In this document: piece by piece, positions 31,497 to 62,121 of the stretch
How the letters are laid out: the number at the start of each line of letters is the position of its first letter
How positions within the stretch are numbered: the first letter of the stretch is position 1
Source: Cobetia sp. L2A1
GTDB taxonomy: Bacteria > Pseudomonadota > Gammaproteobacteria > Pseudomonadales > Halomonadaceae
Assembly: GCF_009796845.1 (NCBI RefSeq)
Contig: NZ_CP047025.1
Coordinates: 1,550,001 to 1,614,000, forward strand
Direction of reading: 5' to 3'
DNA length: 64,000 nucleotides
Made by a program: the position numbers and the translations under genes
The notes under the pieces: model-generated
Databases searched by the model: none
Told to the model about the DNA's origin: nothing
What the model saw: only the letters and a program-made list of their open reading frames with translations

Positions 31497-31505
31497 GGAG
31501 TCGAC

Positions 31506-37382: not shown

Positions 37383-37568
37383 TGGTGTACTCCTTGTGTC
37401 ACGAGATGTCTTCGCATTTTATCAGTAGGGAGTGTGGCGCCTTTCTGTCGTTGGCGCTTCATTCGCGGACATCAATTCTTGCGGCCCTTTATCTCACGCC
37501 TCATGACCCCATATGAGAAAAGAGGTGGTTCGGTGACGGGCTATCAAACGTGACGGAAGGGAGCGCTC

Positions 37569-38273: not shown

Positions 38274-38328
38274 GTTAGGTGGGGCCAGTATGACGGCCCG
38301 TCGCTGACTTATCTTCTCACACGACTGG

Positions 38329-39615: not shown

Positions 39616-40073
39616 ACCGCGTATTCGTGGATGACGGAACGTACCACTCCCCACACCTGACATTCGAGATCAAAGATGGCAACCGGTGGATACATCGCAT
39701 TGCCTGAGCACAGATAAGGGCGCTGCCCGATCAGCTCATAGCGCTTGACCACCACCTCACCCTCGACCAGCGCCACCACGATATGCCCGGGACGTGCATC
39801 GATGGAACGGTCCACCACCAGCGTATCGCCTGGATAGATGCCGTAGCCTTCCATGCTGTCACCCGCCACCGTCATGAAGAAGGTTGCCGCTGGGCGCTTG
39901 ATCAGCCGTTCGTTGAGGTCCAGCGTGCGCCCTGCGTAATCCTCGGCGGGTGACGGGAAGCCGGAAATGCCTGCCCGGCTAGTGACAGTGGGGTGTGGCA
40001 ACGCACAGCGCTCAGGTGCCGGGTGAGGGCAAGCCAGTGTCTCGTGGGAGGCTATAGCTGCAGAAGTGGTCAT
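39612..40073 (-). CDS. umuD: UmuD, LexA-like autoprotease subunit of Pol V
   Basis: A 153-residue S24-family protein. The probable RecA-stimulated cleavage site is Ala-Gly in SRAGISGFPSP at about residues 33-35; the catalytic dyad is Ser in GDSMEG and Lys in VVVKRYE. Removal of the N-terminal tail would produce UmuD' that binds UmuC. A LexA box lies 20 bp upstream of the start codon. First gene of umuDC. Confidence 0.95.
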   Translation of the reverse strand: MTTSAAIASHETLACPHPAPERCALPHPTVTSRAGISGFPSPAEDYAGRTLDLNERLIKRPAATFFMTVAGDSMEGYGIYPGDTLVVDRSIDARPGHIVVALVEGEVVVKRYELIGQRPYLCSGNAMYPPVAIFDLECQVWGVVRSVIHEYAV

Positions 40074-40092
40074 GGGTGGAGTCTCCTATCGA

Positions 40093-40112
40093 TACTGTAT
40101 ATGAATACAGTA
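40093..40112 (-). promoter_or_regulatory. LexA (SOS) box of umuDC
   Basis: TACTGTATATGAATACAGTA, a near-ideal CTGT-N8-ACAG operator, 20 bp before the umuD ATG. It places umuDC under SOS control. Confidence 0.93.
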
Positions 40113-40321
40113 TCGGTGCTGAGGCGCTCACAGGCAACTACTGATCCATGCGAGTGCTGCACATTCATGAGACGCAGATCAAGCGCACTGAACCTGTGTG
40201 CAATGGTAGAGATCGAGAAAAGCTGCTAGCGAGAAAATACCTTTGCAGATCGTGTGTTTGCGTTTCCAGGGTGTCCGCATTACCTTAATTATTCCTTATA
40301 TAATAATATTAGAGGTGGACG

Positions 40322-41569
40322 ATGCGGCTTTCGATGTTGGCGATGGGCTTGGCCTACGGGTTGTGTACTGTCAGTGCACAGGCTGCGGACTATCAAGACG
40401 TGCAGGATGCCGTTGAGCAACAGCGAGAACCCTTGCTGAAGACCTTGGAAACGCTGGTCAATGTGGATTCGGGGACGGGTTACAGTGAAGGGCTGAGCGA
40501 TGTTGAAGCCATGCTCACCCAGCATCTCAAGGCCCTTGGCGCACAGATAGAGACGTATCCTGCCAAGACCTATGGCGGCAATACGATTGTCGGCCGGATA
40601 CAGGGCGAGGGCAGCCGCAAGATCATGTTGATGATCCATTACGACACTGTCTTTGATGAAGGTGCCGCCACTGAGCGTGCCTTCCGTATCGAGGATGGAC
40701 GTGCCTATGGCCCGGGTGTGGGAGATGCCAAGGGCGGCGTCGCCGTTATTCTGCACAGCCTTGAAGCACTGAAGACACTGGGATATGACGACTACGGCCA
40801 AGTCACCGTGGTCTTCAATCCGGATGAGGAAAAGGGCTCTCCGGGATCGCATGAGGTGATTCACAAGCTGTCCGCGGATCAGGATGCCGTTCTGGTCTTC
40901 GAGCCAACCTTTGCTGAGCCAGGGGTAGATGCCGTGACGGTTGTCACCAAGGGCATCAACTACGCCTTTCTCGAGGTGAAAGGGCGTGCATCGCATGCGG
41001 GTGGCGCACCTGAGAAAGGGCGTAATGCCATCATGGAACTATCACATCAGCTGCTGCAGCTGGATGATCTCGGTGATGCGGACAAGCAGACGACGCTCAA
41101 CTGGACGATCGTGGAAGGCGGCGCCAAGCGCAATATCATCCCTGAGCATGCCAAGGCAGAAGGAGATATGCGCTATTTCGATAGTAGCGAGTATGAGCGC
41201 GTTCTGAATGAGGCTCAGAAAATCACTGAGAATCAGCTGGTTGAAGGTACCGAGGTAGCGTTCCATCTCGAAAAAGGGCGTCCGCCGCTGCCTGACAATC
41301 CTCAGAGTCAGAAGCTTGCCAAGCAGGCACAGAAGATCTATCAGGAGCTTGGTCAGTCGCTGCAGGCGGTCGAGATTGGCGGTGGTACCGATGCGGCCTA
41401 CGCCTATCATGAAGGGTCTGATAAGCCTGCAGTACTCGAGTCTCTCGGTCTCGTCGGAGGTGGATATCATAGTGACAAGGAGTTTGTGCTTGTCGATAGT
41501 GTGGTGCCGCGTCTTTATCTGACGACCCGTATGATCATGGAGCTCTCCGACGAAGCGTCTGATGACTGA
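40322..41569 (+). CDS. Secreted M20 metallopeptidase (glutamate carboxypeptidase-like)
   Basis: A 415-residue zinc peptidase resembling carboxypeptidase G2. The signal peptide MRLSMLAMGLAYGLCTVSAQA predicts export. Metal and catalytic positions are recognisable: HYDTVF (His, Asp), GPGVGDAKGG (bridging Asp), NPDEEKGSPGS (Glu general base and ligand), FEPT, and HSDKE near the C-terminus. The dimerization domain starts at about residue 215 (ASHAGGAPEKG). It would release C-terminal glutamate from folate-like or peptide substrates. SD AGAGG lies 6 nt upstream of ATG 40322. Confidence 0.9.
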   Translation: MRLSMLAMGLAYGLCTVSAQAADYQDVQDAVEQQREPLLKTLETLVNVDSGTGYSEGLSDVEAMLTQHLKALGAQIETYPAKTYGGNTIVGRIQGEGSRKIMLMIHYDTVFDEGAATERAFRIEDGRAYGPGVGDAKGGVAVILHSLEALKTLGYDDYGQVTVVFNPDEEKGSPGSHEVIHKLSADQDAVLVFEPTFAEPGVDAVTVVTKGINYAFLEVKGRASHAGGAPEKGRNAIMELSHQLLQLDDLGDADKQTTLNWTIVEGGAKRNIIPEHAKAEGDMRYFDSSEYERVLNEAQKITENQLVEGTEVAFHLEKGRPPLPDNPQSQKLAKQAQKIYQELGQSLQAVEIGGGTDAAYAYHEGSDKPAVLESLGLVGGGYHSDKEFVLVDSVVPRLYLTTRMIMELSDEASDD

Positions 41570-41641
41570 GCTGGATAGTGGAGTGTGACAACTGACGTTG
41601 ACGGTGCAAAGAAGCGTTATCGTTTTTGATGCTAGACCGAA

Positions 41642-41672
41642 GACGCCCCAGCCTTTGAAAGGCTGGGGCGTC
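41642..41672. terminator. Bidirectional terminator
   Basis: 15-bp stem GACGCCCCAGCCTTT / GAAAGGCTGGGGCGTC (inner pairs form the loop) between convergent M20 peptidase and oxygenase genes. Confidence 0.8.
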
Positions 41673-41742
41673 TTCAGTCGTGGCTAACGCCAACATGGGG
41701 CGGGAGTCTTCAGTCGTGGCTAACGCCAACATGGGGCGGGAG
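41671..41742. repeat. Tandem duplication of a 36-bp unit
   Basis: Two identical 36-bp copies (41671-41706 and 41707-41742) abut the terminator and end one base before the oxygenase stop codon. Each begins TCTTCAGTCGTGGCTAACGC and ends GGGGCGGGAG. It looks like a recent replication-slippage duplication. Confidence 0.9.
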
Positions 41743-41743
41743 T

Positions 41744-42493
41744 CTAAAAGAGAATATCGCTACGAATAATGTACTTGGTGCCCGAGGTAATGGATTCACC
41801 GGCATGTACGCAGTGAAGAGGGTGAGCGCCGTGTGGGAAACACAGTACCGCGCCCTTGGGTGTTGATACCGACACGGTTTTTACGTCATCGCGTGACTGG
41901 GCTGGCTTGCCAGGTTCAGAGCGACTGACTAAAAACTCGGTGCGTCCGCCGTCATAACCATCACTGAGGAAGATGAGGAAAGTGTACTGACTCATCAGGC
42001 CAGGATAGGCATCCATCACGATCTGCCCATCGATGACGCGACTGCCTGGCCAGGCACCATCGGTATGTGGCTTGAAGAAGTCGCCTTTCTCGTAGCGATA
42101 GAGACGGAACCGCGCATTGATCCCCTTGGCAGATCTTCCCTCGATCATTTCGGATACCAGATGGCCAGCACGTGCCCAGATGACTTGATCGATGGCCTCA
42201 CTGACAATCCAGTTGACGTTATGGTTATGACGTACCGAGCGAGGTAGCGAGACAGGGGCATCCTCGTCGAAGCCCATCTCCTCTGCCGCTTGTACGAAGT
42301 TATTGGCTTCAGTGGGTGTCAGCACATTGAGTAGCTGAAAGGCGCCTGGCACTTCGTCGATATCCTGACGCGTCGGCTGGAGGGTCGCGTCGGTCTCGTA
42401 GAAGGTGGCGACATCACCGTTGTCACTCCAGATGGGCAGCGGTGTGGGATGAAAGCCGCGCTCATGACTGACGGCGTGAAAGGCTAGGCTCAT
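41744..42493 (-). CDS. 2-oxoglutarate/Fe(II)-dependent oxygenase, prolyl 4-hydroxylase-like
   Basis: A 249-residue oxygenase of the P4Hc type. The iron triad is visible as HTDGAW (His, Asp) at about residues 143-147 and His in LHCVHAGE; the 2-oxoglutarate-binding basic residue is in GTKYIIRSDI. The substrate is unknown: bacterial members hydroxylate proteins, free amino acids or small metabolites. ATG 42493 is set by AAGGAG about 8 nt upstream. Monocistronic. Confidence 0.85.
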   Translation of the reverse strand: MSLAFHAVSHERGFHPTPLPIWSDNGDVATFYETDATLQPTRQDIDEVPGAFQLLNVLTPTEANNFVQAAEEMGFDEDAPVSLPRSVRHNHNVNWIVSEAIDQVIWARAGHLVSEMIEGRSAKGINARFRLYRYEKGDFFKPHTDGAWPGSRVIDGQIVMDAYPGLMSQYTFLIFLSDGYDGGRTEFLVSRSEPGKPAQSRDDVKTVSVSTPKGAVLCFPHGAHPLHCVHAGESITSGTKYIIRSDILF

Positions 42494-42712
42494 GACAATT
42501 AACTCCTTGGGTGTCGCGTGAATACGAAAACCTTGATCAGTAACGTGATCGTAAGGAGGGTGCTGTGCGACAGCCACGAGGCTAGAGCAATCGTGAAAGC
42601 GACGAAAGGTGAGTCTATGCAATTGGCTATTGCCGATTCGGCACTAATGGCTAATGGCACGATAATCCAAACCCCCGTCAGCCACTGGCAGGGAGTGGGA
42701 TACACGGGCTGT

Positions 42713-43033
42713 CTAGTGTCCACTTGTCAGGTGCAAGCCGACGATGGAGAGAACGATGACGCCAATGCACGCCATGCGTCGCAGTGAGAAGTACTCCTTC
42801 CAGAACATTACGCCGATCACGGCGCTGACCACGGTTCCGATACCGGAGAAGACGGCATAGGCAATGCCCAGGCTGATGCTGTCCATCGCGAGATAGAGCA
42901 AGCTGAGCGAGGAACTGAAGCCGATCGCCACCAGCGCGACGCCCAGGCGGCGGCTGTTTTTGGCGTACTGGTTGAAGCCGGCGACACCGATGACTTCACA
43001 GAAGCCGGAGGCGATCAGAAATACCCAATCCAT
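42713..43033 (-). CDS. Small multidrug resistance (SMR) subunit B
   Basis: A 106-residue four-helix SMR protein with the essential Glu in SGFCEVIGVAGF (about residue 13) and typical GTVVSAVIGV. It begins 14 bp after the end of the partner SMR gene; two adjacent SMR genes usually encode an obligate heterodimer (EbrAB or YkkCD types). Substrates could be quaternary ammonium ions or guanidinium; not decidable here. SD AGGAG before ATG 43033. Confidence 0.88.
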   Translation of the reverse strand: MDWVFLIASGFCEVIGVAGFNQYAKNSRRLGVALVAIGFSSSLSLLYLAMDSISLGIAYAVFSGIGTVVSAVIGVMFWKEYFSLRRMACIGVIVLSIVGLHLTSGH

Positions 43034-43047
43034 GGTGAAGCTCCTGT

Positions 43048-43431
43048 TCAATCAGTGGCGGGACGCTGCGTCGTTGCGTCGTGTGAACCCGGCCGCCCGT
43101 TTGAAGGCGTGATCGAGGCGGAAGTGGGGGCGGTCTTCAACAGAATGATCCCGATGAGCATCAGCGCCACGAAGCCGAGGGTCGACCAGTGGAATTCGAG
43201 ATCGAAGAACAACAGATCAGCGACGACAGTCCCGACGGTGCCCAGGCCTACGAAGATGGCATAGGTGGTACTGGCGGGGAGCGTCTTGGCGACCTGTGTC
43301 ACCAGACTCAAGCTGATGATGACCAGCAGGACGGTCAAGGCCCATTCAAGAGGACTGTCAGCCAACTTGAGGCCGATGGCCCAGCCAACTTCACATAGCA
43401 TCGAGATCAGAAAGAAGAGCGTGATACGCAT
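43048..43431 (-). CDS. Small multidrug resistance (SMR) subunit A
   Basis: A 127-residue SMR protein: four helices with the essential Glu in SMLCEVGWAIGLK and the G-rich GLGTVGTVVADLLFF. It has a hydrophilic ~25-residue C-terminal extension rich in Ser, Thr and Pro that is unusual for the ~105-110 residue family. ATG 43431 has AGGA upstream; a longer ORF to 43545 is unsupported. First gene of the pair. Confidence 0.88.
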   Translation of the reverse strand: MRITLFFLISMLCEVGWAIGLKLADSPLEWALTVLLVIISLSLVTQVAKTLPASTTYAIFVGLGTVGTVVADLLFFDLEFHWSTLGFVALMLIGIILLKTAPTSASITPSNGRPGSHDATTQRPATD

Positions 43432-43630
43432 GAAGAGGAGAGTTCCTGTCGTTAGGCACGGGGCCGATAGTCGATGGCCAAGCCAAGAGTGTGGGCGGCA
43501 AACAGCGGCATGAAACAGTTGCGGCCATGCAGAGAGCACCAGCATGTGGTCTGCAAGTGATCATGAAGTGGTGAAGCATGAGTCTTTGCGATTAATTTAA
43601 TTAGAATATTTGAATATATAGCACGGAAAA

Positions 43631-43648
43631 GCGGGGCATAAGCCCCGC
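43631..43648 (-). terminator. tmm1 terminator
   Basis: 7-bp GC stem GCGGGGC / GCCCCGC with a 4-nt loop, followed leftward by TTTTCC, 44 bp after the tmm1 stop. Confidence 0.75.
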
Positions 43649-43691
43649 AGTGAGAGAAAAGGATAAAGGGGGTGTCAGGAAAAGTCGCTGA

Positions 43692-45101
43692 TCACGTCGC
43701 AAGAGGAGTCACCGCACTGACGGCAGGCGCAGTTACCGTCTCGGTCACCAGTGTGCGCTGGGGTTGTGCCAGATAGGCTTCCAGCGAATCATCCATCGCC
43801 TCAAGCCATGTCGTGTGGTGCTTGGGCGCCAGCGTGCCGGTCATCAGTGAGCGATAGGAGTAGTCACGGAAGGTCATGATGTTCTCGTGCTTGTGATGTT
43901 CCCACTCCAGGAAGGTGCGGTTGACGCCATCGATATCGAAACTCGGGTAATCGGTTTCGCCAATCAATGATTTCACGTAATCCCCCTGGAAGAGGATCAT
44001 CGACCCATCGTCATCCAGCGTTTCCTCGCGGCCGCGCCATGCCAGGCTATCCGCCTTCATTACGTCCACTGAGGGCAGGGCGATAGCATCGAGAATCACG
44101 TCACGTACCCACCAGGCCTGGGCATCAAACATGTTGAAGGTGTACCACTGGTCCTGCATGCCGAGATAGAACAGACGTGGGTTCTCTTCCCACACCACAC
44201 CCTTGTAGAGGCCCAGTGGCCACATGCGATTGCCGGTCTTGAGGCGAAGCGATTCTTCCAGATACGGGAAGTGATGCAAATAGCCGGTGCACAGGATGAT
44301 GGCGTCGATGTGCTTGCTGCTGCCATCCTTGAAGTAGGCGATATCGTTCTCGACGCGCTCCAGCAGGGGCTTTTCTTCCCAGTTGTCTGGCCAGGCAAAT
44401 CCCATTGGCGCGGTACGATAGCTAGTGGTGATGCTGCGTGCGCCGTACTTGTAGCACTGTGAGCCGATGTCCTCAGCTGAGTAGCTGCTGCCGATCAACA
44501 ACAGGTCCTTGCCCTTGAATTCCAGTGCATCACGGAAATCATGGGCATGCAGAATACGGCCATTGAAGGTAGAGAAACCGGAGAATTCCGGCACATTGGG
44601 CGTCGAGAAGTGCCCGGACGCCACGATGACGTGATCAAAGACTTCACTGGTGACTTCATCGAGTGCCTGATCGTGAACACTCACCGTGAATAGCTGCGTC
44701 ACATCATCGAAGGTGACCTGACGTACCGGGCAGCCAAAGCGGATGTATTGACGGACGCCGGCTTTCTCGACACGCCCCTTGATGTAATCAAAGATCACCG
44801 CACGTGGCGGATAGGAGGCGATGGGACGTCCGAAATGTTCTTCAAAGGAATAGTCCGCGAATTCGAGGCATTCCTTGGGTCCATTCGACCACAGATAACG
44901 ATACATGCTGCCATGCGCTGGCTCGCCATGCGCATCCAGTCCAGTGCGCCAGCTGTAATTCCAGAGACCGCCCCAGTCATCCTGCTTTTCAAAACAGACG
45001 ATCTCGGGAATGTCGATTCCCTTGTCAGCGGCGGATTGAAAGGCGCGAAGCTGTGCCAGGCCACTGGGCCCTGCACCGATGATCGCAATACGTTTGGTCA
45101 T
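43692..45101 (-). CDS. tmm: Trimethylamine monooxygenase, copy 1
   Basis: A 469-residue flavin-containing monooxygenase that oxidises trimethylamine to TMAO with NADPH and O2. FAD loop GAGPSG is at residues 9-14; [12 protein letters not shown] and [15 protein letters not shown] are typical of bacterial Tmm; the NADPH loop is [10 protein letters not shown]. Start ATG 45101 has AGGA upstream. It is about 95% identical to the second copy at 60718-62121 over the first ~450 residues (about 23 differences counted by eye), but the last ~20 residues differ. The upstream direct repeat is shared with tdm. Confidence 0.9.
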
Positions 45102-45223
45102 GGGTGTCGTCCTGTTCTTGTTGTGTCGTCTTGCTGTCGCGGGTCGAGGCGAGAGCATCGCGTCGATGATCGCTCACACTGAAACAGGCTAACGGGATGG
45201 TGCCGGGCTGAAAATTGCTCGGA

Positions 45224-45244
45224 AAGGGTAGCCAATTAGGGGTA
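45224..45244 (-). promoter_or_regulatory. NarL-type heptamer direct repeat upstream of tmm1
   Basis: On the gene's coding strand: TACCCCT (45244-45238), 7 bp, TACCCTT (45230-45224). Both match the NarL-family heptamer TACYYMT, and the same 14-bp-phased pair occurs upstream of tdm. It lies about 123-143 bp before the tmm1 ATG. Confidence 0.6.
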
Positions 45245-45300
45245 GTCATCCGTCAGAAGCCCGGCAAGGTGCTCGATATGAATGGAAAAACCGATCGTGA

Positions 45301-46146
45301 TCATGTCTCCTCTTCCACGGCAAAGATGATGCCTTCCACGGCCAGTGGTGTGCCGTCGGGCGAGTAGATGCCATGCCCTTTCTCCTGCACATGGACCAAT
45401 GTGCCTGTCAGGTGACGTATGCGATATCGCAAGGTGAAGGGCGCATGCGCCTGCAGCGCCTGCTGGACCTTGTCCCAGACGCGATCGGCATCTTCTGGGT
45501 GGATGATGTCGCCGTAGCTGAGTGGCGGATGATTGAGCAGTGCCTCAGCACTGAGCCCCGTCAGTCCAAGGCAACCTTCACTGACGTATTCCATTGACCA
45601 ATGGCGATTGTTGAGCGCGCGATACAGCATGCCAGGCAGGCCGCTGGTCAACTGCGTCAGGCTGCGCAGGCTGGCAGCATGAATCTGTTCACGCTGGACC
45701 TGTTCGGTGACGTCGCAGAGCAGCAAGGTGGCAGGCCACGGGCCCTTGGTCGCTGATCGCTGGCTGCGCACATCGCACCAGCGATAGTGATTGTCTTGTC
45801 CCAGGATACGAAGTCGCCATACACCAGGGTGAGCGCTGATCGAGAGGTGGTGGACCAGCGCCTGCCATTGCGCCAGGTCTGCCGGATGTAGCGCCGCCAT
45901 GAGGGATGCGGGAGGCTCCATCGACATGCCGCCGTGGCCATCACGAGCGGTGCCATGAGTGTCACCACGAGTGACGTTGCCTCGCAGATGATGCCAACCG
46001 GCAGAGGTATAGAGCAGCTCGCCGCTGGCCTCTATCACCACCACGGTATCCCCCAGGCTTGCCAGTATGTCCTCGGCCACGAGAGTCGCGGGTAGCGTGA
46101 CCGAAGAGCGAGAGGCTGCTGCGAGATGCTCTAGTGGCCCCCTCAT
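45301..46146 (-). CDS. Stand-alone tandem PAS protein
   Basis: A 281-residue soluble protein with two PAS-like domains (about 25-150 and 160-278) and no output domain. The second is the better match (YVSEGCLGLTGLSAEALL, IIHPEDADRVWDKV, HVQEKGHGIYSPDG). The first ends in a PAC-like RWCDVRSQR. Its start overlaps the response-regulator stop by 4 bp, so it forms one operon with kinase and regulator. A role as ligand or redox sensor feeding the kinase is inferred. Confidence 0.8.
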   Translation of the reverse strand: MRGPLEHLAAASRSSVTLPATLVAEDILASLGDTVVVIEASGELLYTSAGWHHLRGNVTRGDTHGTARDGHGGMSMEPPASLMAALHPADLAQWQALVHHLSISAHPGVWRLRILGQDNHYRWCDVRSQRSATKGPWPATLLLCDVTEQVQREQIHAASLRSLTQLTSGLPGMLYRALNNRHWSMEYVSEGCLGLTGLSAEALLNHPPLSYGDIIHPEDADRVWDKVQQALQAHAPFTLRYRIRHLTGTLVHVQEKGHGIYSPDGTPLAVEGIIFAVEEET

Positions 46147-46982
46147 GCTGAATCCTCCTGGTAGGGTGTCTTGCTGAGGCCACTGGCCATATCACGTGAT
46201 CCCCCGATGCCGTGGGTCTTGTGAGCACTGTCTGGTGCGAGTGGATGTGCGTAGACCCAGGCCGCCAGTTCGAGGCGCGAGTGCAGGTTGAGTTTGCGTA
46301 GCAGATTCTTGACGTAGACCTTGACGGTGCTATCGCTGATGCCCAGTTCGCGGGCGATAAGCTTGTTGCTCAGCCCTCGGCCAATCCAGGTCAGGGTATC
46401 GCGCTCGCGTTCGGTCAGCCCCTCCCAGCCATCGGGTGGCGCAAGGCGGTAAGAGGGGGCTATCGCATCGCCATGGTCATCCGGCGTATCGGGGCGCGTG
46501 TCAGTCGTGCTGGTGCGTATTTCAGCCGTGCTGGAAGCCTCGATGCTGGCGCGATGATCGCGTTGCAGGCGTCGCGCCAGCATCAGGATCGATTCCTCAT
46601 CCAGCCCCAGCTTGCCTTCGATGACCGCTTGCAGCCGCTCAAGAATGAGGTCTGGGTTCGTGTCCTTGAGCAGGTAGCCATCGGCGCCTTGCTGGATCGC
46701 ATTGAGCAGGTTGTCACTGTCATCCGAGGCGGTGAGCAGCACCACCTTCAGGTTGTCATCGAGCGCCTTGAGGCGCCGCATCAAGGTGATGCCATCAATC
46801 TCAGGCATCTGCCAATCGACGATGATCAGTGCCGGGGCGAGTGTGGTGACAACCTCTAGCAACGCCAGACCGCTGTCGAATTCTGCCACTATCTCGAAGT
46901 GGCCGCCTTCACTGAGAAGCTCGCCCAGACCACGACGAAATAGAGGATGGTCATCGACGAGTACCACGCGTATGGCGGTCAT
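46143..46982 (-). CDS. NarL/FixJ-type response regulator
   Basis: A 279-residue regulator. The receiver has phospho-acceptor Asp56 (IVDWQMPEIDG) and Lys in YLLKDTNPD; a low-complexity linker (about 140-190, rich in Ser, Thr, Asp) is followed by a LuxR-type HTH (GLTERERDTLTWIGRGLSNKLIA...). It overlaps both neighbours by 4 bp (kinase upstream, PAS protein downstream). NarL-type heptamer repeats at the flanking tmm1 and tdm promoters make it the obvious candidate to control them. Confidence 0.9.
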   Translation of the reverse strand: MTAIRVVLVDDHPLFRRGLGELLSEGGHFEIVAEFDSGLALLEVVTTLAPALIIVDWQMPEIDGITLMRRLKALDDNLKVVLLTASDDSDNLLNAIQQGADGYLLKDTNPDLILERLQAVIEGKLGLDEESILMLARRLQRDHRASIEASSTAEIRTSTTDTRPDTPDDHGDAIAPSYRLAPPDGWEGLTERERDTLTWIGRGLSNKLIARELGISDSTVKVYVKNLLRKLNLHSRLELAAWVYAHPLAPDSAHKTHGIGGSRDMASGLSKTPYQEDSA

Positions 46983-48322
46983 GGGGCCATGCGCTCCCAG
47001 TGCAGTGTCACGCGAGTGCCACCGCCATCTCGTGGCATGACCGCAAGCTGCGCGCCGATGCTGCGAGCACGTTCCTGCATGATCCCCAACCCGAAATGCG
47101 CCGGCGCTACCTCGGCGGGATCAAAGCCGTGGCCGTTGTCCTCAATGACGACCAGTACGTGTGCTGAGTCCGGATAGTGACATTGAAGGCGTGCATGTGA
47201 GGCATGTGCGTGACGTACGGCATTGGTCAGCGCCTCGCGCACGATGAACAGCACATGCAGAGACTCGGTTTCAGGCAGGTGTAGTGAGGGAATGCGGTTA
47301 TCGAGTTCAAACACCATCGCGGAGCGCGTCTCGAATTCTTCTATCAATGTCGCCAGCACACTGGCGAGTGAGGCATCTCCCCAGCTGGCATGTGCGCCAT
47401 TGATGAGCTCGCGCGTCTGGCGATAGGCGCGGCGTGACTGGGTGTGAACATCACTTGCCAATGTCTGGAGGGCTTCATCCGCGTCACGGGTCGCTCTGGC
47501 GAAGCGTGCCGTCTGCATCTGCAGGTAGCTCAATTCCTGAGCGAGGGTGTCATGCAGCTCTGCGGCCAGTGTTCGACGCTCCTTGAGGATGGCGTCACGC
47601 ACGGCGGTCTTGATGACCTCCGCCGTGTGGGTATGTCGCTGATGGTGTGCTATTAGGCCATGGGTGAGTATCTCGCGCATATCGGCCTGTCGTGGGGCAT
47701 CCGCGCTCAGATGAAGCCAGACGCTGGTGCCATCTGCCAGAGACAGCAGCGGATGCCAATGAGGGGAAGGCGCACTGCTGGACATCAGCGCCTTGGACAG
47801 CTGACGTGCCAGTGATCGGGACAATGTCGGGGCGCCAGCGGTTGATAGGGTGTCAGGCTCTTGAGATTGCACACGCGTGGTAGGTGCTGGCGCAATGAGG
47901 CGCAGACCAGGTTCGCGTGAGGTCTGGACAGGTGTCTCGTGTCCGACGGCGCCGTGGGTACTGTGCGCCCCATTGGCGCCGCCAGGGGAGCAGTAGATGA
48001 CGCTGCCCTGTGCGGGTGTCTCCGTTGCTGTCCTGTCCATTGGCGGGAGTTGTCGCGCCGCGAGGTACGGGTGTTCGAGCGTCGCCAAGGGCAGCAACTC
48101 GGCCAGCAGGGCAGGTAATTCACGTGGCAGGTCATCACAGGCCGCGATTCGCAATATCAGCGTTTCGGCCTGAAGCGCCAGAGGATGATCTCTCGAGAGC
48201 ACCGCCTTCTGCGCTCCAGCAGCATGACGACCGGTTGATGGGTCCTCTGCGGCGGAGGCGTGGGTATCCACGCTGCCTTGCCATCGTGACCACATCTTCG
48301 TCATCCCCAGACCGATATTCAT
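46979..48322 (-). CDS. Soluble NarX-type sensor histidine kinase
   Basis: A 447-residue kinase without TM segments. The N-terminal ~230 residues form a poorly conserved, partly low-complexity input region. The HisKA_3 motif ERRTLAAELHDTLAQELS has His257, and the ATPase has REALTNAVRHAHA and EDNGHGF, ending GLGIMQERARSIGA. First gene of a three-gene operon (kinase, regulator, PAS), each overlapping by 4 bp, divergent from tdm. The signal is unknown; trimethylamine, TMAO or redox state are candidates. Confidence 0.88.
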   Translation of the reverse strand: MNIGLGMTKMWSRWQGSVDTHASAAEDPSTGRHAAGAQKAVLSRDHPLALQAETLILRIAACDDLPRELPALLAELLPLATLEHPYLAARQLPPMDRTATETPAQGSVIYCSPGGANGAHSTHGAVGHETPVQTSREPGLRLIAPAPTTRVQSQEPDTLSTAGAPTLSRSLARQLSKALMSSSAPSPHWHPLLSLADGTSVWLHLSADAPRQADMREILTHGLIAHHQRHTHTAEVIKTAVRDAILKERRTLAAELHDTLAQELSYLQMQTARFARATRDADEALQTLASDVHTQSRRAYRQTRELINGAHASWGDASLASVLATLIEEFETRSAMVFELDNRIPSLHLPETESLHVLFIVREALTNAVRHAHASHARLQCHYPDSAHVLVVIEDNGHGFDPAEVAPAHFGLGIMQERARSIGAQLAVMPRDGGGTRVTLHWERMAP

Positions 48323-48458
48323 GCAAGCTCCCTGTTCTGCTCATGATCGTTGACGTCTGGTGATACCCGCGCATCCGGCCGTGATCACTGACACGTCAAG
48401 CGCTCGGCATTCCCCTCAAGTCCTCGATATTCAGCAAGCTTCATGCCAGCGGATGGAT

Positions 48459-48512
48459 TACCCCTTCCGGATTACCCCTCTTGATGGATTGTCGTTATCT
48501 CTACTGGGGGTA
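48459..48512 (+). promoter_or_regulatory. NarL-type heptamer cluster in the kinase/tdm divergent promoter
   Basis: TACCCCT (48459-48465), 7 bp, TACCCCT (48473-48479) in direct orientation, plus an inverted near-copy GGGGGTA (48506-48512). The repeat is about 160-180 bp upstream of the tdm ATG and about 140-160 bp from the divergent kinase start, so it could serve both. Confidence 0.6.
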
Positions 48513-48637
48513 AATTTAATTCACCGTGAAGAACATCGCGGAATGCGTTTCGTCGTGGCGCAGGTAGCAGCGTCTACTGCACCACGAGGGGTCATTGATG
48601 ACGACAGCCGGCGGCTGTCACAAGAGGTATCACCACC

Positions 48638-50917
48638 ATGGGACTTGCAGTCGAGCTACCCGCGGTTCAGCCATGTCGACCCTTTCGCTATCGTATTGCC
48701 GGGTTGGAGGCACTGACGCTGACACTGGCGCCTGGCGACAGCCTTGAGGTCGTGTCGGTGGATGGTGAACAGCCATGCGAGTGGTGGGTCATCTGCCCTG
48801 ACACCGGTATCGATCTAACGCACTGGGCGCGGGCGAGTCGTGCGGTGAAGGGTGACGTTCACGCCGCATGTCTTGTTGAGCATGGCATCGGGCCTGAGCA
48901 GCTTGGCTTTCGCCAGCACATTGCTGCTGCGGACTTGCCTTGGGAATATCACTGGCCAATGGACGCGCCGCTGGCCAAATGCGTGATGCTTGCACCGGGT
49001 CATGAGATGACGATGGCAGGCGAGCATCTGGCGACTGAGCTTGAGGTCTCTCACTGGCGGCATTCTCTTGCTGCCCAGGAAGCGCTTCCCGATCCATTGG
49101 CGCAGGTGAAGCAGGAGGTAAGAATCGCAGCGGGTACGGTCGAGGTCTATGAGGTAAAGAAGGGCGACTGGATCCAGATCATTGATGTGGCAGGGCGGCA
49201 GTGCTCCGACTTCGTAGCCTTCGATGCCGGTGCCTTGGCTCGCGGCGAGGAACTGGGGCTGGACGGAGGGGCAACACGCAGTCTTTCCGGACATGCCATG
49301 CCGCAGCCGGGTCTTTTCTCCGTATTCTTCGATCAGAATCTGCAGCCAATGCTGGAAGTGGTGCAGGACACGGTCGGGCGCCACGATAGCTTCATGTTGG
49401 CCTGCTCACCTCAGTATTACGATCATCACGGCTACTTTGGCCACGATAGCTGCACGGTCAATTTCAACAATGCACTCTTTGCGTCGCATGGCATCCGCAA
49501 GCGTGCGAGCTGGCCGGCCATCAACTTTTTCTACAATGCCTATCTGGAACCCTGCGGCACGTTGTCGGTGGACGAGCCGTGGTCACGCCCTGGAGACCAC
49601 GTGCTGTTGCGGGCAGACCGTGACCTCGTGTGTGCCTCGTCCGCCTGTCCGGATGACATCGACCCCGCCAATGGCTGGGTGCCGACCGATATTCATGTGC
49701 GCATCTATGACGCTGAGCACGATTTTCCCCGTGGAATCGCCTACCGCAACAGGCCCGAGGAACTGCCTCGCATGACACTCCCCACCGCTTTTCATTCCTG
49801 CACCTCCGCGCTGACCAAGCAGTTCGTCGATTACAACGGATATTGGCTGCCCACTGTCTATGAAGGATGGGGCGCGCGTGCCGAATACCTCGCCTGCCGT
49901 GAGCGCGTGGCCATGATGGATCTGTCGGCGCTGCGCAAGTTCGAGGTGGTCGGGCCAGATGCCGAGCGACTGCTGCAGTACGCGCTCACCCGCAACGTGC
50001 GCCGGCTCTCCGTAGGTGAGGTGGTGTACTCCGCCATGTGTCAGGAGACCGGCGGCATGCTGGATGACGGCACGCTATTCAGGCTTGGCGAGCAGGCCTT
50101 CCGCTGGATCTGTGGCGACCCCGCCAGTGGCCAATGGCTTCGTGATATTGCGCAGCGGGAGGGCTATCGCGTCTCGGTGCGTGATTCATCCTCTCAGTTG
50201 CACAACATCGCCCTCCAGGGCCCCAGGAGTCGCGAGATATTGGCGCCGTTGATCTGGAATGCACGCACTCAGCCGGAGGTTCAGACACTGGGCTGGTTCC
50301 GTTTCATGATCGGGCGACTCACCGGGCCGGACGGCATTCCGCTGATGGTCTCGCGTACCGGCTATACCGGTGAGCTGGGTTATGAAATCTGGTGCCATCC
50401 CGAGCATGCCGAAGCGGTGTGGAGTGCCATCTGGGAGGCCGGCAAGCCACATGGCCTCGCACCGTTGGGCCTGGATGCGCTCGATATGCTGCGCATCGAG
50501 GCGGGATTGATCTTTGCCGGGCATGAATTCTGCCCGCTGACCTCTCCCTATGAGGCGGGGATTGGCTTCACCGTGCCGATGAAGAGCAAGGAAGATGACT
50601 TCGTCGGGCGTGCGGCGCTGCAACGAGAGGCTCCGGAATCACGCCAGCGGATCATGGGACTCAAGGTGAGTGGCTACGAGCAGGTACACCATGGCGACAT
50701 GATCTATCACGGTCGCTATCCAGTGGGCGTTGTCACCAGCGCGACCCAATCGCCGCTGCTCAACCAGTCCATTGCGATGTGTCGTCTGGCGCCTGACTAC
50801 GCCAGTCCCGGTACGACATTGGAAATCGGCCAGCTGGATGGCCATCAGAAACGCCTGGCAGCTGAGGTCGTCTCATTGCCGTTCCATGACCCTGAGCGTC
50901 TGAAGGTGCGTAGCTGA
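48638..50917 (+). CDS. tdm: TMAO demethylase (DUF1989-GcvT fusion)
   Basis: A 759-residue protein with the two-part architecture of Tdm, which splits TMAO into dimethylamine and formaldehyde. Residues 158-345 form the zinc-type DUF1989 domain (VEVYEVKKGDWIQIIDVAGR, DSCTVNF with Cys272, CASSACP with Cys332/337); residues about 395-755 form a GcvT-like tetrahydrofolate domain (DLSALRKFEVVGPDAERLL, SRTGYTGELGYEIW) that could capture the one-carbon unit. An extra ~130-residue N-terminal region weakly resembles a second DUF1989 copy. Start ATG 48638 has AGAGGT upstream. Tmm nearby supports the assignment; other DUF1989-GcvT functions cannot be excluded. Confidence 0.82.
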   Translation: MGLAVELPAVQPCRPFRYRIAGLEALTLTLAPGDSLEVVSVDGEQPCEWWVICPDTGIDLTHWARASRAVKGDVHAACLVEHGIGPEQLGFRQHIAAADLPWEYHWPMDAPLAKCVMLAPGHEMTMAGEHLATELEVSHWRHSLAAQEALPDPLAQVKQEVRIAAGTVEVYEVKKGDWIQIIDVAGRQCSDFVAFDAGALARGEELGLDGGATRSLSGHAMPQPGLFSVFFDQNLQPMLEVVQDTVGRHDSFMLACSPQYYDHHGYFGHDSCTVNFNNALFASHGIRKRASWPAINFFYNAYLEPCGTLSVDEPWSRPGDHVLLRADRDLVCASSACPDDIDPANGWVPTDIHVRIYDAEHDFPRGIAYRNRPEELPRMTLPTAFHSCTSALTKQFVDYNGYWLPTVYEGWGARAEYLACRERVAMMDLSALRKFEVVGPDAERLLQYALTRNVRRLSVGEVVYSAMCQETGGMLDDGTLFRLGEQAFRWICGDPASGQWLRDIAQREGYRVSVRDSSSQLHNIALQGPRSREILAPLIWNARTQPEVQTLGWFRFMIGRLTGPDGIPLMVSRTGYTGELGYEIWCHPEHAEAVWSAIWEAGKPHGLAPLGLDALDMLRIEAGLIFAGHEFCPLTSPYEAGIGFTVPMKSKEDDFVGRAALQREAPESRQRIMGLKVSGYEQVHHGDMIYHGRYPVGVVTSATQSPLLNQSIAMCRLAPDYASPGTTLEIGQLDGHQKRLAAEVVSLPFHDPERLKVRS

Positions 50918-51126: not shown

Positions 51127-51213
51127 TCATTACAGAGGGTCCCCTTAACAACAACAACAACCTCCGCAGGGCAATGCCTCTGATTGCCTGTACCGCGAGA
51201 AGGAGAATCGACA

Positions 51214-52572
51214 ATGGATGAAGCGAGTCTGAAAAGCATATTGGATATGCATCAAGCCATGAACATCGAGGTGTTCTATTGGTGGTGTACCGCGATCATG
51301 TTCTTGATCCATGCCGGATTCCTGGCCTATGAAATTGGCGCTTCCCGCTCGAAGAATGCGCTGGCATCCGGCATGAAGAACGTGCTGACGCTAGCCTCCA
51401 TCATTCCTGCGTTCTACTTCGTGGGCTGGTGGATCTACAACGCCTTCCCCAATGGACTGATTCCCATCGATGCATCGGCGGCCTTGCCGTGGAGCGCCAG
51501 CATGCGTCCAGACGTCGATGACATGGGCACTGGCATCTTCTTTGCGGCGTTCGCCCTGTTTGGCGCGACGACAGGCTCCATCCTGTCGGGTGCGGTGATC
51601 GAGCGCATTCGTCTGGGAGCCTTCCTCACTCTGGCCGTGATTCTCGGTGCTGGCGTCTGGATTCTGGCAGGTGCCTGGGGCTGGCATCCGGATGGCTGGA
51701 TGCTGCACAAGCTGGGCTATCACGATGTGGGCGCGGCAGGTGTGGTACATGCGGTGGCTGGCTTCTTCGCATTGGGCGTCGTGCTGAATCTGGGCGCGCG
51801 TATCGGCAAGTACCGCGAGGATGGCACGCCACAGGTCATCGCCCCACACAACATGCCGATGACGTTGATCGGCCTGATGCTGATCATCGTCGGATTCTTC
51901 GGCTTCCTCGGTGGCTGCATCATCTTCAATACCGGCGATATCGGCTGGACCACCATCTACGGCAATCGCACCAATCTGTCGGCCTTTGCCTTCAATACGT
52001 TGATGGGCTTCGGTGGCGGTGTGATCGGTGCCTACCTCTCCTCGCGTGACCCGTTCTGGACCATGTCCGGTGCACTGGGTGGCATCATTACCGTGGCGGC
52101 AGGGCTTGATCTCTACAACCCAGGCCTGGCCTTCGTGCTGGCGGTCACCGGGGGCGCATTGATGCCGAAGATCGGCGCGATGCTTGAGAAACGTGGTGTG
52201 GATGACTCAGTTGGTGCCTTTGCGGTCCATGGCTTCTGTGGCTTCTACGGCGTGGTGCTGGTGGGTATCTTTGCCGCTGGCTTTTCCAATGCGGGTGAAG
52301 GCGTGCCGGACATCTCCTTCACGGGTCAGCTGATAGGTGCAATCGTGATGGCAGTGACAGGCTTCGTGCCAGGCTGGGGTATTTCCTACGCACTCAAGAA
52401 GTTCAACCTGCTGCGCGTGCCACCGCATGTTGAGGTGCTGGGGCTGGATCTATTCGAAGTCCCCGCCAAGGCCTACCCGGAGAGTCTGGCCTCCGAATCC
52501 TATTCCAGCGTGCCGGCACGTTCCGGTGGCGTGGTCGCAGCACCGATGGACAAGCGTCCGGACATCAGCTGA
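51214..52572 (+). CDS. amt: Ammonium transporter (Amt/MEP family)
   Basis: A 452-residue channel with about 11 helices. The twin pore His lie in VVHAVAGFFALG and AVHGFCGFYG. The N-terminus MDEASLKSILDMHQAMN has no clear signal peptide, unlike E. coli AmtB, and no glnK gene accompanies it. Start ATG 51214 has AAGGAG 8 nt upstream. Driven by a sigma-54 promoter; neighbouring tdm suggests recovery of ammonium or small amines alongside methylamine breakdown. Confidence 0.92.
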   Translation: MDEASLKSILDMHQAMNIEVFYWWCTAIMFLIHAGFLAYEIGASRSKNALASGMKNVLTLASIIPAFYFVGWWIYNAFPNGLIPIDASAALPWSASMRPDVDDMGTGIFFAAFALFGATTGSILSGAVIERIRLGAFLTLAVILGAGVWILAGAWGWHPDGWMLHKLGYHDVGAAGVVHAVAGFFALGVVLNLGARIGKYREDGTPQVIAPHNMPMTLIGLMLIIVGFFGFLGGCIIFNTGDIGWTTIYGNRTNLSAFAFNTLMGFGGGVIGAYLSSRDPFWTMSGALGGIITVAAGLDLYNPGLAFVLAVTGGALMPKIGAMLEKRGVDDSVGAFAVHGFCGFYGVVLVGIFAAGFSNAGEGVPDISFTGQLIGAIVMAVTGFVPGWGISYALKKFNLLRVPPHVEVLGLDLFEVPAKAYPESLASESYSSVPARSGGVVAAPMDKRPDIS

Positions 52573-52931: not shown

Positions 52932-53942
52932 TCAGCTGCCGTTTCCCAGGCTCTGACCGTCTTGCATCTTGCAGGAGAAGCGTTGCTGAATATCGCGGCT
53001 TTCGCCCTCGATCAAGCCGATTACGATATCCACGGCAGCCTTGCCCATGGCATCGAATGGCTGCTCGATGGAGCACAGCGTAGGGGAGAGTAGCTGTGCG
53101 ATATCGTGGCCATTGAAGGTGGCAAGCGACATCTCGGCGGGTACCTTGATTCCGTGGCAGTGAAGAAGTCCAAGAACACGAAAGGCGAGAGAGTTGTGAG
53201 TCGTCAGCAGTACGCTGGGACGCTGCTGTGCCTTCAGCAGCTCCGTGATCAATGCCTCGCTGCCGTCGAGGGATAGCGGTAGCTCCTTGACATCGATATG
53301 TTGCGCTAACCCCGCAGCCGTCATGGCTTCACGGTAGCCTTGTGCGCGCAAGGCGTAGCGCTGGGCGCTCTTGAAGTCGCCTGCCAGAAGCGTGATGCGC
53401 TGATGCCCAAGAGAGATCACATGCTCGACGAGTTGTTGCATCGCAAGACGGTTCTCTGCAGCTACGAAAGGATACTGGCTGTGTTCCTCTTCATTGAATA
53501 ACAACACGAAGGGCACTTCCAGTTTCTCGAGCAGTGCAAGGTGCTCATCCAGGTGTGAAGAGCCCAGGTTGACGACCAGCCCGTCCACGCCACGTGCGAT
53601 GAGTGTCTCGAGGGCGAGCCGTTCATCGGCAGGCTCATAGGCCGTCGTCATCACTAGCGCGGCATAGCCACGCCCACGACAGGCACGCTGCAGGCTCTCG
53701 ACCGCCCAGGAGTAACTCTGCGGAATGATGCTGGGGATGACCACGCCGATGGTGCGTGAGCGATTTTCCTTGAGCGACTTGCCGACGAAGCTCGGGATAT
53801 AGCTCAGCTTCTCGATGGCAGCACGGATCCGCTCAGCGGTATCGTCGTTGACCAGTGCGGTCTGATTAAGATGTCGGGAGACTGTCGCAGTGGAGACACC
53901 GGCCTCTTTCGCGACTTGAGCAATGGTCGCACGTCGTTTCAT
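52932..53942 (-). CDS. LacI-family repressor of the Ugp-like operon
   Basis: A 336-residue LacI-type regulator: HTH at residues 1-58 ([32 protein letters not shown] hinge) and a periplasmic-binding-protein-like sensor (about 62-330). It is transcribed away from the ABC operon; a perfect palindrome TGTAATCGATTACA stands between the two, and a second copy lies inside the first transporter gene. The inducer is unknown, but regulator and target operon suggest a glycerophosphodiester or sugar-like ligand. Confidence 0.92.
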
Positions 53943-54015: not shown

Positions 54016-54031
54016 ATGTAATCGATTACAT
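54016..54031. promoter_or_regulatory. LacI-family operator O1
   Basis: Perfect 16-bp palindrome ATGTAATCGATTACAT between the divergent repressor and transporter genes, of the central-CG type bound by LacI-family proteins. Confidence 0.85.
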
Positions 54032-54068
54032 GTACGCAATTCCTCTTTGTATTGCGGAGATGATGGCA

Positions 54069-57119: not shown

Positions 57120-57165
57120 CGCACACATCGCGACGTTGGATGAACCTGCTTTGCACACGTAATTC

Positions 57166-57249
57166 CTGCACCTGTCTCTGAATCTGCACCTGTCTCTGAA
57201 TCTGAATCTGAACCGCATCACACTCTCTGCTTCTGAACCGCATCACACT
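57166..57249. repeat. Short direct repeats before the binding-protein gene
   Basis: An 18-bp unit CTGCACCTGTCTCTGAAT occurs twice in tandem (57166-57183, 57184-57201), and CTGAACCGCATCACACT occurs at 57208-57224 and 57233-57249. They fill most of the 142-bp gap between the permease and binding-protein genes. Confidence 0.85.
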
Positions 57250-57261
57250 TCGGAGTTTTAG

Positions 57262-60717: not shown

Positions 60718-62121
60718 TCAGGCGTCAGCGAGACTGTCTTCCTCGGCCTTGGGCGCAGCCGCCTTTTCAGGCGTACGCTGTGGCTGTGCCAGAAAAGCCT
60801 CCAGCGAATCATCCATCGCTTCAAGCCATGGCGTGTGGTGCTTGGGTGCCAGCGTGCCAGTCATCAGCGAGCGATAAGAGTAGTCACGGAAGGTCATGAT
60901 GTTCTCGTGCTTATGATGCTCCCACTCGAGGAAGGTGCGGTTGACGCCATCGATATCGAAACTCGGATAATCGGTCTCACCAATCAATGATTTCACGTAA
61001 TCCCCCTGGAAGAGGATCATCGACTCATCGTCATCAAGCGCTTCCTCGCGGGCACGCCATGCCAGGCTATCCGCCTGCATTTCATCTACTGAGGGCAGGG
61101 CGATGCCATCGAGAATCACGTCACGTACCCACCAGGCCTGGGCATCAAACATGTTGAAGGTGTACCACTGGTCCTGCATGCCGAGATAGAACAGACGTGG
61201 GTTCTCTTCCCACACCACACCCTTGTAGAGGCCCAGTGGCCACATGCGATTGCCGGTCTTGAGGCGCAGTGATTCTTCCAGGTATGGGAAGTGATGCAGA
61301 TAGCCGGTGCACAGGATGATGGCATCGACATGCTTGCTGCTGCCATCCTTGAAATAGGCAATATCGCTCTCGACCTTCAACAGCAGAGGCTTTTCTTCCC
61401 AGTTGTCCGGCCAGGTGAAGCCCATCGGCGCGGTGCGATAGCTGGTGGTGATGCTGCGTGCACCGTACTTGTAGCACTGTGAGCCGATGTCCTCAGCTGA
61501 GTAGCTGCTGCCGATCAACAACAGGTCCTTGCCCTTGAATTCCAGCGCATCACGAAAGTCATGGGCATGCAGAATACGGCCGTTGAACTCCGAGAAGCCC
61601 GGGAATTCCGGCACGTTGGGCGTCGAGAAGTGCCCGGATGCCACAATGACGTGATCAAAGACTTCACTGGTGACTTTATCGAGTGCCTGGTCATGAATAT
61701 TGACCGTGAATCGCTGTGTCGTGTCATCGAAGGTGACTTGACGTACCGGGCAGCCGAAGCGAATGAATTGTCGGACACCCGCTTTCTCGACACGCCCCTT
61801 GATGTAATCAAAGATCACCGCGCGTGGCGGGTATGAGGCAATGGGGCGTCCGAAATGTTCTTCGAAGGAGTAGTCAGCGAATTCGAGGCATTCCTTGGGT
61901 CCATTCGACCACAGATAGCGGTACATGCTGCCGTGAACGGGCTCGCCATGAGCATCCAGACCGGTACGCCAACTGTAATTCCAGAGACCCCCCCAATCGT
62001 TCTGTTTTTCAAAACAGACGATTTCGGGAATATCGATACCCTTGTCAGCGGCAGATTGAAAGGCGCGAAGCTGTGCCAGGCCACTGGGCCCTGCGCCGAT
62101 GATCGCAATGCGTTTTGTCAT
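60718..62121 (-). CDS. tmm: Trimethylamine monooxygenase, copy 2
   Basis: A 467-residue flavin-containing monooxygenase almost identical to the copy at 43692-45101, in the same orientation. FAD loop GAGPSG, NADPH loop [10 protein letters not shown] and the conserved [12 protein letters not shown] are all intact, so it should be active. Differences concentrate in surface segments; the C-terminal tail is Lys/Glu/Ala-rich instead of Val/Thr-rich. Upstream DNA is AT-rich and unrelated to the tmm1 promoter; no TACCCCT pair is seen. Separate regulation is therefore likely. Confidence 0.9.

Follow-up and report, generated by a model that had tools for sequence, protein, structure and literature searches.

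We analyzed a 64,000-nucleotide stretch of the Cobetia sp. L2A1 genome (contig NZ_CP047025.1, positions 1,550,001 to 1,614,000), here called the window. Between tmm1 and tdm lies a cassette of three overlapping open reading frames (ORFs), which encode a NarX/NarQ-type kinase, a NarL-family regulator, and a PAS protein, with the regulator in the middle (Table 1). A first-pass annotation of this DNA had placed a solitary NarL-type regulator between tmm1 and tdm; its position is correct, but the gene does not stand alone, being the middle member of a kinase-regulator-PAS set and thus part of a three-protein system.

Table 1. Coordinates of genes and promoter elements in the window
Feature	Position	Strand	Evidence or remark
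tmm1, trimethylamine monooxygenase	43692..45098	-	NCBIfam NF058570 equivalog
Paired heptamer TACCCCT-N7-TACCCTT, TACCCCTAATTGGCTACCCTT	45224..45244	-	Upstream of tmm1
PAS protein, cassette gene 3	45301..46146	-	One PF08447 match; alignments
NarL-family response regulator, receiver + GerE/LuxR DNA-binding domain	46143..46982	-	PF00072 (2.1e-27), PF00196 (1.2e-19)
NarX/NarQ-type histidine kinase	46979..48322	-	PF07730 + PF02518
Paired heptamer TACCCCT-N7-TACCCCT, TACCCCTTCCGGATTACCCCT	48459..48479	+	Between the divergent kinase and tdm genes, upstream of tdm
ATTG, putative -35 element	48488..48491	+	Fixed offset after boxes
GGGGGTAAATT, putative -10 region	48506..48516	+	Includes GGGGGTA (48506-48512), annotated earlier as an inverted near-copy
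tdm, trimethylamine N-oxide demethylase	48638..50917	+	DUF1989 + GCV_T + GCV_T_C
Ammonium transporter, adjoins tdm	51184..52572	+	PF00909; often kept in cluster (gene order)
tmm2, second tmm copy	60718..62121	-	Protein 94% identical to tmm1 product

Genes and proteins of the locus

The tmm1 ORF is open from 45158, but alignments with homologues begin at about residue 1 when counted from the Met at 45098. Scanned as 43692-45158, Tmm1 scored 831.7 bits against NF058570, over the cut-off of 675. Tdm matched NF053776 over nearly its full length with 1047.2 bits (cut-off 1100), and its domain architecture fits.

Both signaling proteins of the cassette fall below the equivalog cut-offs of their namesakes. 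The kinase scored 170.9 versus 553 for NarQ and 130.2 versus 578 for NarX, and the regulator 188.7 bits versus a cut-off of 250 for the NarL equivalog NF007935. Residues needed for phosphotransfer are kept: kinase H257 is invariant in 32 aligned rows, and regulator residues D10, D11, D56, T84, and K106, which comprise the phospho-acceptor aspartate and switch residues, are invariant in six orthologues. The regulator helix STVKVYVKNLLRKL aligned to NarL STVKVHVKHMLKKM, making the recognition helices very similar. We detected no clear transmembrane segment in the kinase (hydropathy maximum 1.06).

The PAS protein reads as two PAS domains joined via a helix, judging from its AlphaFold model (mean pLDDT 85.6, pTM 0.56), and an orthologue at another locus has two PAS regions. 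No GntR helix-turn-helix was found at E≤0.001 in the seven proteins scanned. An AraC-type HTH_18 domain is likewise absent from the window; the regulator carries GerE instead.

Paired heptamers at the tmm1 and tdm promoters

Exact matches to TACCCCT-N7-TACCCYT occur twice in the window and in 0 of 100 dinucleotide shuffles (mean 0.00). Both repeats face their genes with the same 14-bp phase, just as the first-pass annotation had described. Allowing up to two mismatches returned the same two sites only (shuffle mean 0.20; two sites were reached in 4 of 100 shuffles). Across the single contig of 4,118,938 bases that makes up the genome, the pattern had two matches at zero or one mismatch, those at the tmm1 and tdm promoters, and a reversed control pattern had one. 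A profile (R1) built from 33 sites outside the genus returned the same pair (tmm1 site, E 0.0047; tdm site, E 0.05) and no others at E≤10, with 150 of 261 first-look candidates in the genome scored. The motif is thus not scattered through the genome at chance frequency. The genome-wide profile search found no box at the dmm operon. Upstream of tmm2, which serves as an internal negative control, there is no paired box (best score 4.9, rank 37). Among 201 genomes of the family, the exact 21-mer matched 18 times, four times in the same genus and 14 times in genomes without an identified tdm; a reversed control 21-mer matched five times. Specificity resides in the degenerate element within its promoter context, not in the exact 21-mer.

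The NarL heptamer class is TACYYMT. All three site sets contain the direct repeat with its 14-bp period, while an inverted half is clear in the tdm and type II sites only. The mean match of this inverted half was 5.80/7 for type I tdm sites, 5.62/7 for type II sites, and 4.86/7 for type I tmm sites; at both window sites, the NarL-like inverted half-site matches at five of seven positions. Conservation in type II sites is slightly higher for the inverted than for the direct half (5.62 versus 5.42 of 7). The inverted 7-2-7 arrangement overlaps the direct repeat in the tdm promoters of relatives and is spelled out in some (e.g., TACCCCT-GC-AGGGGTA at locus L090).

Downstream of the boxes, ATTG, which lies outside the 24-base matrices, occurs at an identical offset in 33/33 listed tdm promoters, and GTAA lies at offset 47-52 in 29 of the 33. 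The GGGGGTA sequence had been taken for a further copy of the box. It is present, but since GTAA is kept in relatives and the G-run is not, it is probably part of the -10 region rather than a third box. The -10-like hexamer TAAATT appears weak.

Cassette and box in other genomes

The cassette or a fused form adjoins tdm in 74 of 80 loci, and gene order is preserved in three Halomonadaceae genera. Close regulator orthologues (E<1e-40) were found in seven of the 201 family genomes, six with tdm and one with a decayed locus. The repeat also extends to orthologous promoters beyond Cobetia. A first weight matrix, made from 10 Halomonadaceae sites, was applied to loci of other families and gave a box at p≤0.05 upstream of tmm in 21/21 cases and upstream of tdm in 18/25 (a set that includes one cassette-less locus, L088); the other seven tdm promoters fell short of this threshold with that matrix. 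Control promoters gave no excess on the coding strand (amt, 2/17; PAS, 2/24; RR, 0/25), and on the reverse strand three, two, and four, respectively, reached p≤0.05.

In a second layout, represented by 47 loci, the kinase-facing site ranked first among 28,300-44,574 positions in 42 loci and second to fifth in five; best scores at four cassette-less loci used for comparison were at most 9.4. Best locus scores for tmm were at least 19.7 in 8/8 loci with the cassette and at most 14.1 in 36/36 without it, and none of these 36 had a comparable box. This co-occurrence of box and regulator, together with the lack of any similar box in loci without the regulator, supports the dedicated regulon that had been predicted from the two promoters. 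The exception is L088 of Pseudomonas juntendi, which has tdm and a strong box but lacks the cassette in the 10 kb upstream. Those 10 kb contain Tn3 transposase and resolvase genes, and a search of that genome found no close regulator relative (best E 1.3e-20).

In Cobetia amphilecti N-80, an ISL3-type element splits the kinase gene, with the regulator, PAS gene, and boxes retained. In five Pseudomonas loci, the PAS protein is fused to the regulator's DNA-binding domain, without kinase or receiver, and the box is kept at rank 1. The DNA-binding domains of cassettes and fusions lie on one side of a 100/100 branch, separate from 17 other LuxR-type domains. As the site sets were extended stepwise by matrices started from Cobetia sites, and many Pseudomonas loci are near-copies, tests made later lack full independence, and this selection partly accounts for the invariant TA in both boxes.

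Proposed control of tmm and tdm and its relation to known systems

The two repeats are very probably operators of a dedicated two-component system that activates tmm1 and tdm. This reading builds on the boxes, with their placement and conservation, on gene linkage, on domain content and phosphotransfer residues, on the matching presence and absence of box and cassette, and on the loci in which PAS is fused to the DNA-binding domain. The soluble kinase would phosphorylate the regulator, which would bind the paired TAC-boxes, immediately ahead of the putative -35 region at both promoters, and activate transcription. TMA would then be oxidized to TMAO and TMAO demethylated to DMA. The PAS protein would be the remaining functional component, most likely sensing in the cytoplasm and acting on either the regulator or the kinase, and the signal may be TMA, TMAO, DMA, or a downstream product.

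The same regulator might instead repress from the boxes and let go of them once methylated amines are present. The sign of regulation is not readable from sequence, and Ruegeria tmm is reported to be under the repressor TmoR and, mildly, TmaR (PMC13390433). However, in 33/33 tdm promoters the boxes immediately precede the putative -35, the usual place for an activator, and the -10-like hexamer seems to be weak. We consider repression unlikely. Very unlikely is control of the upper pathway in Cobetia by an AraC-type TmaR homologue, with the boxes doing something else. A Cobetia homologue is listed in a clade with <35% identity to TmaR (PMC13390433), but all 16 AraC-type HTH_18 domains of our genome lie outside the window and more than 50 kb from the dmm gene found, and the main text of that report uses none of the terms two-component, response regulator, histidine kinase, or NarL. 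TmaR may still act on the lower pathway, so control by TmaR and by the cassette are not exclusive.

Further NarL-like regulators in the genome, such as those at 3491766 (115.4 bits) and 3029440 (113.4 bits), could own the boxes and make the neighborhood incidental, a reading that also draws on the box without a cassette at L088. Against this, box and cassette are otherwise present or absent together, the fusion loci keep the box with the cassette-type DNA-binding domain as the only such domain in the locus, and the genome has no match over the NarL equivalog cut-off, which leaves another regulator highly improbable. Least credible of all is a reading of the element as chance or as a conserved part of the core promoter, and not as a regulator site. 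It does abut the conserved ATTG and GTAA, which resemble -35 and -10 elements, but no comparable box occurs at tmm2 or, L088 excepted, at cassette-less tmm/tdm loci, and control promoters show no excess.

Breakdown of TMA and TMAO is a main route for methylated-amine nitrogen in the sea. The only tmm/tdm regulators in the literature surveyed are TmaR and TmoR of a Roseobacter (PMC13390433). For Cobetia, Marinobacterium, Amphritea, Methylophaga, Acinetobacter, Pseudomonas, and Paraburkholderia, our analysis points instead to a conserved sensor-regulator cassette that is unrelated to these two and has a defined operator. Cassette and box travel together across many marine and soil bacteria, which points to a dedicated switch for this step of the nitrogen cycle, for which the exact proteins and 21-bp sites can now be named. 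The PAS fusions form a natural series from two-component to one-component control at a single operator. More tentatively, Gamma- and Betaproteobacteria could have in this cassette a new class of methylated-amine control, with a soluble double-PAS protein that recognizes a methylated amine or its product and exerts its effect on a NarL-type DNA-binding domain directly. Kinase and receiver would intervene in the three-gene form and would have been lost, probably twice, by PAS fusion, yielding a one-component regulator with the same operator.

The first-pass annotation knew of no described tmm/tdm regulator of this kind, a statement that needs amending: TmaR (AraC type) and TmoR (GntR type) are dedicated regulators of tmm/tdm and the methylated-amine pathway in Ruegeria pomeroyi, although from quite different families (PMC13390433). 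TmaR control has been inferred for some Gammaproteobacteria, including Cobetia (Cobetia sp. Dlab-2-U is proposed; PMC13390433). Unlike the cassette, both belong to unrelated one-component families, and the available text of that report mentions no kinase, receiver, LuxR-type domain, or paired TAC-box.

The CrbS/R acetate system of Pseudomonas has a LuxR/NarL-family regulator for a catabolic pathway and a conserved repeat just upstream of the core promoter that is absent where the system is missing (PMC5715377). The CrbR repeat lies at -52 to -36, similar to the box geometry here, but CrbS is fused to a solute symporter domain, and the ACTU motif and targets differ (PMC5715377). DmfR of Paracoccus aminophilus is likewise a LuxR-family activator for degradation of a methylated nitrogen compound, N,N-dimethylformamide; it controls dmfA1-dmfA2, not tmm/tdm (PMC4543880).

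With NarX/NarQ-NarL of Escherichia coli, the cassette shares the kinase transmitter and regulator families, a similar recognition helix, and the heptamer class. It differs in scoring below the equivalog cut-offs, in a kinase without a clear transmembrane segment, in the additional PAS protein, in the genes beside its boxes (tmm, tdm, and dmm), and in the direct repeat of all site sets. At yeaR, a single NarL site just upstream of the -35 suffices (PMC7419079), a geometry similar to that found here, and the 7-2-7 tdm sites of some relatives resemble NarL sites such as the engineered narG site, TACCCCTAAAGGGGTA (PMC4549865).

Paired boxes and gene order at the Cobetia locus

The first-pass annotation had reported two paired heptamers, one before tmm1 and one before tdm, each oriented alike with respect to its gene, and both were confirmed at the positions claimed. 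The NarL heptamer class is TACYYMT. The two sites are the only exact matches to the paired box (TACCCCT-N7-TACCCYT) in the window, and none occurred in 100 shuffles. At zero to one mismatch, the Cobetia genome contained two matches only, both at the tmm1 and tdm promoters (reversed control, one). Across the 201 family genomes, we found 18 matches to the exact 21-mer, four of them in genomes of the same genus, and five in the reversed control. As this 21-mer also occurs in family genomes where no tdm was found, the exact word by itself is no proof of function. Profile R1, built from 33 sites outside the genus, gave two matches and no more in the Cobetia genome at E<=10, one at the tmm1 promoter and one at the tdm promoter.

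Features of the window, which covers positions 1550001-1614000 of the 4,118,938-base contig
Feature	Window position	Strand	Remark
tmm1	43692-45098	-	
Paired box, tmm1	45224-45244	-	
PAS protein gene	45301-46146	-	
Response regulator gene	46143-46982	-	
Histidine kinase gene	46979-48322	-	
Paired box, tdm	48459-48479	+	
ATTG	48488-48491		putative -35, tdm promoter
TAAATT	48511-48516		putative -10, tdm promoter
tdm	48638-50917	+	
Ammonium transporter gene (amt)	51184-52572	+	
LacI-type regulator	52932-53942		between ammonium transporter and ABC transporter genes
ABC transporter genes	54030-58593		ATPase, permeases, solute-binding protein
tmm2	60718-62121	-	second tmm copy; protein 94% identical to tmm1

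Since the kinase and regulator ORFs, and the regulator and PAS ORFs, overlap by four bases, these three genes (the cassette) look like a single operon, divergent from tdm. Because tmm2 lacks the paired box, its regulation probably differs from that of tmm1. About 60 kb past the window, the same genome carries dmmABC-like genes and, at a separate place, dmmD-like genes (L230, 1335-10805), and the paired box was not found at either.

Conservation of the cassette in two layouts

Within the family sample, tdm was present in six and tmm in 16 of 201 genomes. Close orthologues of the regulator were found in seven, the six with tdm and G045, a genome of the same genus. All six tdm genomes, from three genera, keep the order tmm-PAS-RR-HK-tdm-amt (RR, response regulator; HK, histidine kinase), and in each both promoters carry the paired box in exact or degenerate form, the spacer bases having changed. 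The box was absent upstream of tmm2 and of tmm in the first five cassette-free relatives examined. G045 contains a decayed locus (L080, 9517-11414) with fragments of the regulator, kinase and ammonium transporter genes; neither tmm nor tdm was found in this stretch. In Cobetia amphilecti N-80 (L026, approximately 6745-10014), the kinase gene is split by an insertion that encodes an ISL3-family transposase, a cation efflux protein and signal peptidase II; this is a natural kinase disruption, and the regulator, PAS gene and both boxes are still present.

A scan of a species-genome collection with a Tdm alignment confirmed at least 552 loci, of which the 80 best were taken. The cassette, or a fused form of it, adjoins tdm in 74 of these best 80. 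Twenty-seven have the layout of the window (type I) and come from Halomonadaceae, Marinobacterium, Marinomonas, Neptuniibacter, Amphritea, Nitrincola, Neptunomonas, Acinetobacter, Methylophaga and others; tmm was not found in the stretch of four (L093, L094, L095 and L112). In the other 47 (type II; Pseudomonas, Stutzerimonas, Burkholderia/Paraburkholderia and two Nitrincola), PAS<RR<HK< faces >tmm>tdm or a longer operon. In one type II Pseudomonas locus, L121, the box is followed by dmmA-like, ferredoxin-type dmmB-like, HODM-type dmmC-like, GcvT-like, formyltransferase, tmm and tdm ORFs, an order suggesting that a single box may switch the pathway from TMA through to MMA.

The six loci without a cassette are L088, L096 and four from Hydrogenophaga/Rhodoferax/Malikia. 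L096 begins at tdm, and a regulator with 73% identity in the DNA-binding domain lies on another contig of that genome. L088 (Pseudomonas juntendi BML3, 4210-12286) has tdm and a strong paired box with no cassette upstream; as Tn3 transposase and resolvase genes lie upstream of tdm, the fragment looks mobilised.

Matrix searches and anatomy of the element

The searches with matrices and profile R1 build on one another, starting from the Cobetia sites, and the counts are of loci rather than events, near-identical loci included. Matrix 1, from 10 Halomonadaceae sites, was run on upstream regions of 26 window-layout loci of other families (including L088). Upstream of tmm, sites reached p<=0.05 in 21/21 loci, of which 16 had p<=0.01; all lay between -96 and -130, and the reverse strand gave 1/21. 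Upstream of tdm, 18/25 reached p<=0.05; the reverse strand gave 17/25, an expected result given the partly palindromic tdm element. Control genes gave 2/17 (amt), 2/24 (PAS) and 0/25 (RR), with three, two and four on the reverse strand.

Matrix 2, from 47 sites of those other-family loci and the Halomonadaceae loci, was run on type II loci, where the best site within 1,300 bases beyond the kinase match was ranked against 28,300-44,574 positions. The box ranked first in 42/47 and between second and fifth in the remaining five; in four cassette-free loci, the best score was at most 9.4. Conversely, with a matrix of 26 type II sites the tdm box ranked fifth or better in 33/34 rows and the tmm box in 23/32, the 32 including three tmm2 copies that failed as expected.

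In a phylum sample, tmm occurred in 29 of 398 genomes. Stretches were retrieved for 28 of these and for those family genomes with tmm that were not covered above. The best score per stretch was >=19.7 in 8/8 tmm loci with the cassette, where single sites can score lower (the window's tdm box, 17.2), and <=14.1 in 36/36 without it; some stretches are short, and a cassette may lie further away. Independent evidence comes most strongly from the constant site positions, the results for control genes, this presence/absence match and the ATTG offset in tdm promoters.

The consensus is approximately TACYCC(C/T) for the first box and TACYCNT for the second, with the 14-bp phase fixed in tmm and tdm sites. 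The TA of both boxes is identical in 33/33 tdm sites listed, partly a result of matrix selection. An inverted half-site overlapping the second box was also seen in tdm and type II sites, in a NarL-like 7-2-7 arrangement; it matches on average at 5.80 and 5.62 of 7 positions, respectively, versus 4.86 in tmm sites. At a fixed distance after the boxes comes ATTG (tdm) or, in most tmm sites, GGAATT. ATTG lies at one exact offset in 33/33 tdm promoters, outside the 24-base matrices and within profile R1. If ATTG and TAAATT are the -35 and -10 elements, the boxes would cover roughly -64 to -44. The single NarL site at yeaR (PMC7419079) and the CrbR repeat (PMC5715377) are reported to act close to this predicted position.

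Cassette proteins and known regulators

The conserved His is present in the kinase, in which no clear membrane-spanning segment was found. The PAS protein gave generic PAS matches, and its structure model reads as two PAS domains on a helix. At five Pseudomonas loci (L129, L131, L149, L151 and L163), PAS and a NarL-type DNA-binding domain form one protein of 204-236 aa that lacks a receiver, and the stretch gave no kinase match. The box is retained in the promoter facing the fusion gene, ranking first in 5/5. The fusion is a putative one-component form of the cassette. Among the best 82 of 120 listed homologues of one fusion, most have both domains; source names include 'histidine kinase' and 'NarL', which the domain content does not fit. 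A DNA-binding-domain tree, with only 62 columns and a bootstrap that has not settled, separates 62 cassette and five fusion rows from 17 other LuxR-type domains by a 100/100 branch. The fusion label needs two changes on this tree; most simply, there would have been two separate fusion events. The fusions suggest that the PAS partner is functionally tied to the regulator.

Receiver signature residues are present in the regulator, and its recognition helix resembles that of NarL, where the helix has a role in DNA contact. Its score falls below the NarL equivalog cut-off, above which the Cobetia genome has no match. Our searches, which covered an open-access library, found one regulator study of the tmm/tdm pathway. 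Its main text describes two Ruegeria pomeroyi regulators, TmaR (AraC type), an activator of tdm and of genes downstream as well as a mild repressor of tmm, and TmoR (GntR type), a repressor of tmm, and infers TmaR control for some Gammaproteobacteria, Cobetia included (PMC13390433). No AraC-type HTH_18 domain lies within 50 kb of the dmm gene found in the Cobetia genome. Since the main text of PMC13390433 contains none of the terms two-component, response regulator, histidine kinase or NarL, we take the cassette-operator pair to be undescribed in the library covered, as far as our searches show. The first-pass annotation, which predicted a dedicated regulon, was right in substance: the paired box is real, and it is a candidate operator that is conserved widely and linked to a dedicated NarL-family cassette.
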